Source: Actinopolymorpha alba DSM 45243
Lineage (GTDB): Bacteria > Actinomycetota > Actinomycetes > Propionibacteriales > Actinopolymorphaceae
DNA: 43,736 bases
Assembly (NCBI RefSeq): GCF_000373925.1
Contig: NZ_KB892749.1
Location: 1 to 43,736, forward strand
Direction of reading: 5' to 3'
Under the pieces are notes generated by a model that saw only the letters and a list, made by a program, of their open reading frames with translations, was not told where the DNA came from and did not search any database. Shown here piece after piece: positions 8,938-27,048 of this stretch (its first letter is position 1; each line of letters opens with the position of its first letter). Both the position numbers and the translations under genes were made by a program.

Positions 8938-9504
8938 ATGACAGACATGGAACACCGCGACACCGGCACGTCGGCGCAGCAGCAAGCGCAGCAACAGGCG
9001 CAGCAACAGCAGGCCGAAGCCCCGACCGTGCCGCAGGCCCGGAGGTCCGCGGAGGCACGAGGAGAGGCGGCGCTGCCGGCCGCTGAGATGGTCGCGGGAG
9101 CCGGCTGGTTGACCTACGCCGGGATCGCGCTCGTCGTGCTCGGCGGGTTCCACTTGATCTGGGGTCTCACCAGCCTGCTCAGGACGACCACATTCCTCGT
9201 GGCGAACACCGGACTGGTCATCACGTGGAACTACACCGCCTGGGGCTGGATCCACATCGCCATCGCCGTTCTGCTCGTGGCAACCGGCTTGGCGATCCTC
9301 GCGCGGCAGAAGTGGGCAAGGTTCGCCGGTATCGGGATTGCCTCGATCTCGGCGTTCGCGAACTTCCTCACGTTGGCCGCGTTCCCGATCTGGTCGCTGA
9401 TCATGATCGGCGTGGACATCCTCGTGATCTACGGCCTCGCCACTCACGGCGAAGCCATGACGGAGTCCATGCGGGAGTCTAGGGCGGCGCGCCGAGCGGC
9501 CTGA
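8938..9504 (+). CDS. Four-helix membrane protein, DUF7144-like
   Basis: The 188-residue protein starts with a hydrophilic, Gln-rich region (residues 13-26 are mostly AQQQ repeats). Four hydrophobic helices follow at about 55-78, 98-120, 124-142 and 144-165, then a charged C-terminus. The motif GWLTYAGIALVVLGGFHLIWGL and the WGWIHI segment match a common actinobacterial integral membrane family of unknown function. GGGGG lies about 8 bases before the ATG. It stands alone, divergent from dnaK, and is followed by three strong hairpins. Confidence 0.75.
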   Translation: MTDMEHRDTGTSAQQQAQQQAQQQQAEAPTVPQARRSAEARGEAALPAAEMVAGAGWLTYAGIALVVLGGFHLIWGLTSLLRTTTFLVANTGLVITWNYTAWGWIHIAIAVLLVATGLAILARQKWARFAGIGIASISAFANFLTLAAFPIWSLIMIGVDILVIYGLATHGEAMTESMRESRAARRAA

Positions 9505-9557
9505 GAGCGTCCCGCCTCACCGGCGAGACGCGACACAACCCGCCGGAAACAGTGATG

Positions 9558-9592
9558 TGGCTCATGCGTACCGATTCGGTACGCATGAGCCA
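9558..9592. terminator. 35-bp near-perfect palindrome downstream of the DUF7144-like gene
   Basis: TGGCTCATGCGTACCGA is followed, after a single T, by its exact reverse complement: 17-bp arms with almost no loop. It begins 53 bases after the stop codon at 9504 and is followed by TTTCCC. It probably ends transcription or stabilises the mRNA, though there is no real U tract. Confidence 0.55.
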
Positions 9593-9691
9593 TTTCCCTG
9601 CGTGCCCACGTACCGCAGCGGCTGGGCTGTGCCGCGTCTCCCACCCACGAAGCGCGCTCAGCACCCTGCCTGGTGGGAAGTTGGCGGCAAC

Positions 9692-9759
9692 CAAGATCAT
9701 TTCGGGGAAGTGGCCCACGCTTCGTGCGAAACGTGGGCCACTTCCCCGAAATGATCTTG
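9692..9759. repeat. GATC-bounded hairpin, copy 1 (28-bp arms)
   Basis: Exact 28-bp arms (9692-9719 and 9732-9759) enclose a 12-base apex CTTCGTGCGAAA, which itself has a TTCG/CGAA pairing. From the first GATC (9695) to the last (9756) it is 62 bp, the same as the hairpin at 9818-9879. The apical 24 bases of the two match at 19 positions, while the stems differ. The perfection of the arms suggests selection or recent origin. It could end transcription in both directions. Confidence 0.8.
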
Positions 9760-9814
9760 AGCCAACCGCAGGTCAGCCGGGGCCGTTCATGAGCCGGACA
9801 GCTTAAGCCTGGTT

Positions 9815-9882
9815 CATGATCAACTTGCAGAAATCGCCCAGCCTTCGCGCGGATCGTGGGCGATTCCTGCAAGTTGATCATG
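9815..9882. repeat. GATC-bounded hairpin, copy 2 (26-bp arms, one mismatch)
   Basis: Arms run 9815-9840 and 9857-9882 with one A/C mismatch, enclosing GCCTTCGCGCGGATCG. GATC to GATC is 62 bp (9818-9879), identical in length to the neighbour at 9695-9756. Shared blocks are GATCA, CCCA, CTTCG, GCG, CGTGGG and TGATC, in the same positions. The 14-bp stem segment between them differs but stays self-complementary. Confidence 0.8.
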
Positions 9883-10093
9883 GTGCGGTTTCCGTGTCGT
9901 TTCACTCAGATCCAGCGGTCTGTCCGGCGCCGGAGCCTTTGAACAAACCTCATCGGGTACACCCAGCGAGCCCAGATCTCGAGATAATCCCAACTCCAGC
10001 GATGAGGCCTATTCAAACTCTTCGCGAGGTCGGCATTCGGGCGAGGTCCAGCCATGCCGGCGCGGCAGCCTCATAAGGGGCAGGCCATCTCAG

Positions 10094-10338
10094 GATCGTG
10101 AAGACTCCGGGGTGCTATAACCCCCTCAAGTTTTCACGATCTTACTGAAATACAGCAGCCGTCCCGAATGGCGTACATCCGGTCGTATCGGATAGTGAGG
10201 GACCAGCCTCTTGTCTCACATTGAGTACACCCTTTGGCGGACCTCACGCGGCAAGTCCCCACCTCACGCGGCAAGTTTGCCTTGCCTGGTAGGGATATGT
10301 CCCGCCTCGCACCCGACAGGGTGTACACAACGTGAGAC
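10094..10338 (-). repeat. Composite intergenic repeat cluster, copy A
   Basis: Four modules recur in the cluster at 15342-15588. Module 4 is a 48-bp GATC-bounded hairpin at 10094-10141. Module 2 (10170-10199) matches its partner at 27 of 30 positions. Module 1 (GTCTCACRTTG and what follows) occurs twice, inverted, at 10213-10231 and 10306-10338. Module 3, ACCTCACGCGGCAAG, is a direct repeat at 10241-10255 and 10261-10275. Modules 4 and 2 run in the opposite direction to the second cluster. Confidence 0.8.
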
Positions 10339-10388
10339 GCACCCGCCTGCCATCCCGAACAGACTCCAGCCCCACCGCAGGGCCCCGC

Positions 10389-11774
10389 TTAACCCGTCCC
10401 CGCAGCGGGCTCCGACGCCAGGGGCGGCCGGGCAACGAACTCGATGATGGCCAGCGCCACCAGCAGAATCAGAGCCAGGAGCAGGACGACCAGGACGGTC
10501 GGCTGGTACCAGAACACGAATCCCAGAACGATGGCCACGACCACGGCGACCCGCAGCAGCCTCCTGTGGTCGTACACCCAGGAGCCCACCGCACCGGTCC
10601 GCAGTCCTATGGCCTCGCCGCGCTCCCGCAGCCAGCCGATCGCTCCGCTGAGCCACATACGCACGCGAACGACGAACTCCGTCGGCCCGACGAGGAACCC
10701 ACCCAGCGCCACGAGCAGCGCGACAACGGCGAAGGTACGCAACTGCACCTGGAGGAACCGCACCAGCGTGTCGTAGATCGCGGCCGCCGCATCGGGCGGC
10801 AGTTTATTTGGAGGTATGGAACTGAGGTAGATCGACCGGGCGATCGCAAGCCCCAATCCGAGCACCAGCATCGAGATCGCGACACCGATGCCGGCTCCGA
10901 TCAGCATCCGCCGGCGGTACCTCGCGAGAAGCACACCCGCTGCGAGCAGCACGACCGCCAGGATGGGAAGCAGCACCGCGAGCTGGTTGAGCCACTGGTA
11001 GGCGATCTGCAGTGTGGCGAGATCCTTCGACTGGAAGATCTGGATCGTCGGGTGGATCGCCGGCACCTGGTTGATCAGAGTGAAGCCCGCGTTGCTCAGG
11101 TCCTTCTTCACCACGTCGATGAAGGGACCGAGGTCGAGGCTGACCACGCCGCCCTGAACCTTGAGCGCACCGCCCTGCCCTGACAGCGCCTGGATGATCG
11201 CATGATGCGCCACGCGGTTGGCCTGTACCCACACCGTGGAGAACTGATCGCTTCGTACGACGTTTGTCACCTGCGTGGTAACGAATCCCTTGATGGCGTT
11301 GGAGATCGTCCCACTGAGTCCACGCACCTGTGCCGCCACGACAGGGGGCAGCCGGGAGGCGATCGCGTCCAACGCCTGGCGAGTGAGGCCTTCGACATCG
11401 ACCCGGCTGAAGATCGCCTGCGTGGCCTGGGTGGCCGCGGCGTCCTGAACGGCGGGTTCCTTCGCAAGCGGCGCCACGGTCGCGACGTACTGGTTCGTGT
11501 CCGAAACGGTGGTGTTGCTCCAGACCGCGACGAGCGCGAGCGGCGCGAAGATGCAGCCAAGTACGACGAGCAGGACCGCGATCGGCGTACGCCAGCGCCC
11601 AGTCGGGGGGTGTCGCTCAGACGGCGGGCCGGCGCCAGCCCCTTCGGCCTGGAGCCGTTGCGTCTCGGCCCTCGCATCCGCGAGTTCGACGCGCAGACGT
11701 TCCAGCTCGGCGCGCTCGTCGTCGCTGAGCGGTCCGCCGGGCGTCTCGTCACGGTTCGGCTCAGGTTCTGTCAC
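10389..11774 (-). CDS. Actinobacterial multi-pass membrane protein with N-terminal coiled coil
   Basis: The 461-residue protein has a charged coiled-coil N-terminus (about 18-50, ELERLRVELADARAE). One transmembrane helix at about 63-88 is followed by a long extracytoplasmic region of about 180 residues. Four or five hydrophobic helices fill the C-terminal third, and a Pro/Ala-rich tail ends the protein. I recognise it as a conserved actinobacterial integral membrane protein of unknown function. The GTG at 11774 is chosen because CGGGGGAA lies 6 bases upstream and the codons before it look non-coding. It lies 114 bases downstream of the LuxR gene on the same strand, with a 20-bp direct repeat between them. 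Confidence 0.7.
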   Translation of the reverse strand: MTEPEPNRDETPGGPLSDDERAELERLRVELADARAETQRLQAEGAGAGPPSERHPPTGRWRTPIAVLLVVLGCIFAPLALVAVWSNTTVSDTNQYVATVAPLAKEPAVQDAAATQATQAIFSRVDVEGLTRQALDAIASRLPPVVAAQVRGLSGTISNAIKGFVTTQVTNVVRSDQFSTVWVQANRVAHHAIIQALSGQGGALKVQGGVVSLDLGPFIDVVKKDLSNAGFTLINQVPAIHPTIQIFQSKDLATLQIAYQWLNQLAVLLPILAVVLLAAGVLLARYRRRMLIGAGIGVAISMLVLGLGLAIARSIYLSSIPPNKLPPDAAAAIYDTLVRFLQVQLRTFAVVALLVALGGFLVGPTEFVVRVRMWLSGAIGWLRERGEAIGLRTGAVGSWVYDHRRLLRVAVVVAIVLGFVFWYQPTVLVVLLLALILLVALAIIEFVARPPLASEPAAGTG

Positions 11775-11832
11775 ACACGTTCCCCCGCAGCCGATCCTTG
11801 CCGCCGCGCGCGCGAACGCCCTCACCCTCGCC

Positions 11833-26979: not shown

Positions 26980-27048
26980 CGCCGAAGATTCGCACGCGAA
27001 AACGCCCACCTGCTCGAGGTGGGCGTTTTCGCGTGCGGATCTTCGGCG
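26980..27048 (-). terminator. Strong hairpin terminator after the malic enzyme gene
   Basis: Arms of 32 bp (26980-27011 and 27017-27048) have one T/G wobble and enclose GCTCG. It starts 8 bases after the malic enzyme stop on the minus strand. Its top reads CCCACC...GGTGGG and GATT/GATC marks lie lower in the stem, recalling the hairpins near 9.7 kb. Confidence 0.8.

Follow-up and report, generated by a model that had tools for sequence, protein, structure and literature searches.

The window, i.e. the whole stretch of 43,736 nucleotides of Actinopolymorpha alba DNA that was analysed, contains two hairpins, A and B, in the intergenic region between two convergent genes, whose 3' ends lie at 9504 (plus strand) and 10389 (minus strand). 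The coordinates of the features are given in Table 1. The flanks and spacer of the A/B block are found again elsewhere in the genome. The second repeat of the same region, about 280 bp long, has dozens of partial copies in this genome with 75-89% identity. When the whole window was compared with Rfam at the gathering score, nothing matched on the hairpins; the sole match was a piece of a group II intron (D1-D4-2, RF01999, 91.7 bits) on the minus strand near the contig start (42-162). Eight repeat-bearing loci (78,767 bases) gave 0 Rfam matches.

Table 1. Features in and around the intergenic region of hairpins A and B (window coordinates).
Feature	Position	Strand	Remarks
Left-hand gene, 188-aa ORF	8938..9504	+	3' end towards hairpins
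Separate hairpin	9550..9600		46 bp past left-hand gene end; candidate ordinary 3'-end hairpin of left-hand gene
Whole repeat block (A, spacer, B, outer flank of B)	9684..9953		270 bp; repeat depth at least 3
Hairpin A with CAA/TTG extension	9692..9759		GATC-GATC core 9695-9756; stem class TTTCGGGGAAGTGG
A-B spacer	9760..9814		recurs in other A-B composites
Hairpin B with CAT/ATG extension	9815..9882		GATC-GATC core 9818-9879; stem class ACTTGCAGAAATCG
Second dispersed repeat block	10064..10344		same intergenic region; imperfect 48-bp GATC-bounded palindrome at 10094-10141
Right-hand gene, 478-aa ORF	10389..11825	-	3' end towards hairpins

The sequence upholds the measurements of the preliminary description. 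Counted from one GATC to the other, each hairpin has a length of exactly 62 bp; by eye, their apical 24 bases are identical at 19 positions, their 14-bp stem segments agree at 7 of 14 (about half, as described), and the stem of A is perfectly self-complementary while that of B has one mismatch. Since the arms of A start at 9692 and those of B at 9815, the palindromes are 3 bp longer on each side than their GATC ends. Folded as single-stranded DNA, A has a free energy of -37.3 kcal/mol (z -14.1) and B of -27.3 kcal/mol (z -8.4), and for neither was any of 200 shuffled sequences equally stable.

That A and B belong to one family had been inferred from the two copies. When at most 3 mismatches are allowed, a pattern in which ends and apex are fixed and the stem is free occurs 40 times forward and 41 times in reverse in the 8-Mb genome, and its reversed control not once, so that the likeness of the two hairpins is not due to chance. 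The covariance search of this genome that had been proposed, with a model for which 17 copies representing classes A to D were aligned, gave 129 strand matches at 65 places, or 64 loci when one weak partial match (E 0.05) is set aside. Further copies, whose absence would have refuted the family, thus exist, and the family stands. The number of 64 loci is a lower bound, because 135 of 5061 candidates were scored. Most of these loci are 62 bp long, and the few off-length copies include one (C45:87718) with the same extra base in both arms. At least five stem classes can be distinguished: A, with the stem TTTCGGGGAAGTGG; B, with ACTTGCAGAAATCG and the divergent variants C2:42340 and C54:17829; D, with AGTCCGAGAAACTG, in 8 copies; E, with ACGACGGCCGAAAC, in a single copy; and F, with ACGGTCCCG-AATTC, in two copies of 62 and 61 bp. 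The window has a further hairpin at 26980-27048, with 32-bp arms that are 97% complementary, a 5-base loop and GATT/GATC within the arms; its different length and apex rule it out as a member of the 62-bp family.

The fixed length and the GATC ends are properties of the genome at large. In 800 kb, a sample chosen by contig and not by hairpin, there are 29 GATC-bounded hairpins, eleven of 62 bp, two of 61, eleven of 80, two of 71 and one each of 40, 45 and 47 bp; 400 kb from each of two same-genus genomes have 2 and 0. Among the 16 self-complementary tetramers GATC yields most hairpins, and the length modes of ACGT (72, 60), TATA (66) and CATG (68) are, with the nesting judged by eye, offsets of those words inside the 80- and 62-bp elements. 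The length counts and the comparison of tetramers reject a chance length mode. A GATC-rich genome was also rejected as the cause, as the observed to expected ratio of GATC is 1.05 here versus 1.02 and 1.03 in two same-genus samples. Long palindromes of all kinds occur at 33.8 per Mb here versus 12.5 and 7.5 in two relatives.

The 80-bp hairpins form a second GATC-bounded family that is likewise abundant. Its 24-bp arm matches the genome 191 times forward and 194 times in reverse (control 0), counts in which one site may figure on both strands because the arm is itself nearly palindromic. The 80-bp palindromes, with AATGATCACGTWTACGTGGTCATT arms, were seen at L050 7465-7544 and at 13 other places in the DNA examined from this genome, with the both-arm variants GTATAC, GTTTAC/GTAAAC and GTTTGC/GCAAAC, and solitary arms occur too. 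Another long palindrome (TCATAGGTTTCTCGG... or CAGAGGTTTCTCGG...) recurs at L051 6223-6278, L085 9186-9239 and L081 12644-12691, and its L085 copy adjoins a composite of A and B that is bounded by terminal inverted repeats (TIRs).

The 62-bp pattern with fixed ends and apex is absent from 56 relatives, including five same-genus genomes, and among 394 genomes of the class it matched only the own genome and, in non-palindromic form, one other (G336). The covariance model gave nothing above 33.3 bits in the same-genus genomes, where its five matches all fall in G003. A relaxed exact pattern found 8 places in a collection of genome contigs, with arms that are not complementary (7-14 of the first 20 positions, the fixed GATC included). 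The class A and class B strings both had 0 matches in viral contigs, and hairpin A had no match in plasmids and phages.

The design is met again farther away. Run over 197 genomes of the class (E 1e-5, stricter filters, 26 candidates scored per genome), the model matched G149 of family f17 and G191 and G096 of genus g50 in family f23, and what it found there are again palindromes with GATC ends, built on other stems. A length of exactly 66 bp is shared by 8 of the 15 GATC-bounded hairpins in a 342-kb sample of G191, a mode that none of the other tetramers displays. The pattern TTGATCWTGGAG..CTCCAWGATCAA matched 14 of 394 class genomes (control 0), namely all 12 of the g50 genomes examined, in 2, 4, 9, 10, 27, 34, 41, 57, 59, 78, 97 and 124 copies, and outside g50 G209 (2 copies) and G114 of family f24 (3). 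One g50 element compared with plasmids and another compared with phages found no match. With matches in the own genome, G149, g50 and G114, the design spans at least four families (f1, f17, f23 and f24). For a common descent of the 62-, 80-, 66- and 55-bp families, it is their shared design only that would speak.

Placement relative to genes was studied with the gene calls of a simple codon-usage script on 1.04 Mb, which hold 46 copies of 61-62 bp in a set partly chosen around known copies. None of the 46 lies inside a called gene, and the 42 copies with both neighbours comprise 21 between convergent, 16 between tandem and 5 between divergent genes. Among the intergenic regions, a copy is present in 17 convergent, 15 tandem and 4 divergent ones and absent from 66, 223 and 120, so that convergent regions are enriched (17/36 regions with a copy vs 66/409 without, Fisher p = 3.9e-5) and divergent ones depleted (p = 0.019). 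The median distance to the nearest facing 3' end, present for 41 of the 46 copies, is 137 bp, compared with 66 bp for the 80-bp family (11 of 14 copies) and 254 bp for random intergenic placements. Only 8 of the 46 (17%) lie within 60 bp of a facing 3' end, little above the 13% of random intergenic placements, and this tells against the copies being strict terminators here.

The elements of g50 sit closer to genes. Among those of 55, 56, 65 and 66 bp in the G191 sample, 11 of 12 have a called stop codon no more than 43 bp away, and in convergent pairs the element is spaced 35/35, 21/21 and 25/25 bp from the two gene ends. One convergent site followed across 12 g50 species has a GATC hairpin in five: 66 bp in G191 and G128, 65 bp in G234, 66 bp in G274 with another stem and the apex in the opposite orientation, and a 55-bp element of another family in G182. 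G096 has an apparent remnant, and six species have no element in the 150 bp inspected; as the second gene adjoins in only four species, loss of synteny is mixed into this comparison. G191 also has two 48-bp GATC palindromes (GATCATCAAGGATCC..., L239 5064-5111 and L252 15046-15093), unlike the 66-bp family, between divergent genes.

Hairpins A and B also serve as modules of larger mosaics, and the flanks of their copies recur (seven pairs of neighbouring A and B were compared). Since most A and B copies are within such mosaics, the mobile unit may exceed the palindrome. The mosaics exchange modules, as in a TIR-bounded 325-bp unit (L210 1654-1978) with an F-class-like and a GATCGTAAAGGATTT palindrome in place of A and B. 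Two copies, C57:26594 and C2:319701, are chimeras of one A arm and one B arm, and the second of them has the outer flank of B, which is what would remain of an A-B composite after the loss of everything from one apex to the other. Three copies (C70:37090, C117:88799 and C1:401039) have lost hairpin B, and C38:117084 has lost the greater part of both A and B; by eye, the break points of these losses are at short direct repeats. The two chimeras and the four copies with losses look like products of recombination and slippage.

The difference between the stems of A and B, each complementary in itself, had been taken as the trace of a structure under selection, and this part of the description is weaker. 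In an alignment of 17 copies of classes A to D, picked as palindromes so that paired cells are favoured, the 442 cells are paired to 97.1% and comprise 74 both-sided changes, 5 one-sided standard pairs and 13 unpaired cells; shuffled alignments have 22.2 both-sided changes and slid controls at most 9. Changes across the 17 copies are thus mostly two-sided. Within classes, however, one-arm changes outnumber matching two-arm changes (44 vs 16 in A, 72 vs 19 in B, 21 vs 4 in D), while the latter exceed the 3.2, 7.7 and 1.3 both-arm cells expected under independence, which means that the arms drift and are occasionally re-matched or re-founded. In g50 the 12-bp ends are invariant, the apex is conserved and the stem segment in between varies; 92.5% of the cells pair in an alignment of copies chosen as palindromes, which again favours paired cells, and both-sided cells number 30 vs 12.9 in shuffles, yet on two of the five covariation measures the alignment does no better than shuffles (277 and 261 of 500). 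The complementarity of the stem is by itself no proof of selection, as the copying of ready-made palindromes or the homogenisation of arms by template switching would give the same picture without it.

Four other accounts of the copies have to be weighed. The preliminary description had left a REP/MITE-like mobile palindrome and a terminator family side by side, and the dispersal of the repeats and their preference for gene 3' ends are in part consistent with both. Movement by the Y1 tyrosine transposase, the enzyme of GTAG REPs, would suit short hairpins with a 3'-end bias, and the own genome has 9 Y1_Tnp (PF01797) matches where four of five same-genus genomes have none. Nevertheless, RAYT-type mobilisation is largely refuted and hardly credible, as Y1_Tnp has no match in any of 18 genomes elsewhere, 15 of which carry the design in up to 124 copies. 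G003 has 7 Y1 matches yet no match to the 62-bp pattern; the own Y1 genes belong to elements common to G003 (81-82% identity); the four own Y1 loci scanned, three of which by eye have a TnpB-like ORF nearby, have no 62-bp palindrome at their ends; and the GTAG tag is absent. With Y1 missing from 18 of 18 genomes, spread needs another enzyme or a replication-linked route. A DDE transposase is one candidate, with the A-B composite as the inside of a short transposon that has GAGGCTTATTCAAAACC as its inverted ends. Some composites are indeed flanked by GAGGCTTATTCAAAACC in inverted orientation, the closest pairs spanning 204 to 480 bp, and this motif has 24 forward and 30 reverse matches genome-wide and none for the control. 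Even so, we regard this origin as improbable: many copies have other flanks, the flanks of classes D, E and F and of the 80-bp family are by eye unique past a few bases, no target duplication was seen by eye at the listed composite boundaries, and no transposase partner was found for the composites with inverted ends.

It could also be that the hairpins are primarily terminators kept by selection at gene ends, and that they resemble each other through recombination (concerted evolution) and not through movement. The convergent enrichment of the 62-bp copies, the tight and symmetrical spacing of the G191 elements, the five g50 species that have a GATC hairpin at one convergent site despite differing family, stem and orientation, and the both-sided stem changes all fit this account. 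We still think it rather unlikely, because identical ends at unrelated loci require copying, 5 of 42 copies are between divergent genes, six of the 12 g50 orthologues have no element in the inspected stretch, and the median distance of the 62-bp copies from facing 3' ends is long. At the locus itself, no rho-independent terminator with a T-tract was found in 9400-10450 and the left-hand gene already has the hairpin at 9550-9600. The matching arms might instead be a mutational by-product, template switching homogenising the stems and inverting the apices, with neither selection nor an enzyme needed for complementarity. This process, described in yeast with arms homogenised and spacers inverted in the part of the source used here (PMC8604942), could keep stems complementary without selection. 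The excess of matching two-arm changes over independence agrees with it, as do the paired 1-bp insertion in both arms of C45:87718 and the reversed apex at the orthologous site of G274. Shared ancestry within subclasses likewise yields two-arm changes, and template switching accounts for the upkeep of stems and not for spread to 64 loci or for the fixed length and ends; as the explanation of the palindromes we hold it to be a serious possibility, if a doubtful one.

On balance we favour the reading that these are RAYT-independent dispersing palindromes settled at gene 3' ends, where they probably act as bidirectional 3'-end hairpins. A and B would then be members of a superfamily of GATC-bounded palindromes copied around actinobacterial genomes as intergenic repeats. 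Each copy would retain the ends, the length and, within a lineage, the apex, and the stem in between could be any self-complementary sequence. New copies may arise when a palindrome is copied by some other enzyme or by replication-linked template switching, and template switching may also re-match the arms. Copies would persist chiefly at gene 3' ends, above all those of convergent pairs. A long hairpin should do little harm at such places, and it may act on transcript ends there and serve both directions, in termination or protection. Neither an empty site nor a target duplication nor an enzyme came to light, and movement is therefore inferred. Against this reading are the 62-bp copies, which are not tight behind stop codons, the lack of a T-tract terminator at 9400-10450, the left-hand gene with a hairpin of its own, and the position of the two 48-bp palindromes of G191.

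Several known systems offer parallels. In BIMEs of E. coli and in rhizobial mosaic palindromic elements, palindromes and linkers make up composite intergenic mosaics, as A, spacer and B do here; to our knowledge these elements have no sequence or tag in common with the GATC palindromes. MITEs are also short and non-coding, and some A-B units have inverted ends, but here no autonomous element was found among the motif pairs, no target duplication was seen and many palindromes are without GAGGCTTATTCAAAACC ends. In searches of the literature, the sequence strings of A and B found no match, and those of several families matched only through one 14-letter term, in work on other subjects. Stem-loop families of Yersinia, Bordetella and Enterococcus are intergenic and accumulate on the 3' side of genes and between convergent ones (PMC1590033), a placement like that of the GATC palindromes, though they are unrelated by name and the part of that paper considered here mentions no GATC-bounded family. 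Most REPs have been sorted into GTAG and CGTC types, the latter without a dedicated transposase (PMC3733652). According to the same source, in the part drawn on here, both types are dispersed, many-copy intergenic palindromes named by a short tag, and the CGTC type resembles the GATC palindromes in the missing transposase. REPs differ in being 20-40 bp long with an unpaired tag at one end, whereas the present elements are 55-80 bp long with paired GATC at both ends and a free stem between fixed ends and apex. The main text of PMC3733652 contains none of the terms GATC, actinobacter and Streptomyces.

The GATC family is therefore REP-like in the broad sense, with many palindromic copies (64 loci) that are intergenic (0 of 46 in called genes) and biased to 3' ends, and not in the strict, RAYT-associated sense, as it has paired GATC on both sides in place of the GTAG tag and lacks the link to a Y1 enzyme. 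We tentatively suggest, with somewhat less assurance than for the reading given above, that the GATC palindromes may be a third, RAYT-independent REP-like superfamily, characteristic of Actinomycetes. Its members would be portable 3'-end hairpins working in both directions, with ends, length and apex retained, stems rewritten in both arms together, and one element taking the place of another at a given gene end as species diverge. If this is true, the dispersed palindromes gain a superfamily that has a tag of its own and lacks the tyrosine transposase by which GTAG REPs are explained, and for which the question of spread becomes testable. It would also provide a natural case of stems that stay complementary as their sequence changes, in which structural selection can be separated from homogenisation by template switching, a distinction that bears on all arguments in which covariation serves to prove an RNA function. 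In high-GC bacteria 3'-end hairpins are little known, and the copies, placed at gene ends, are candidates for them.
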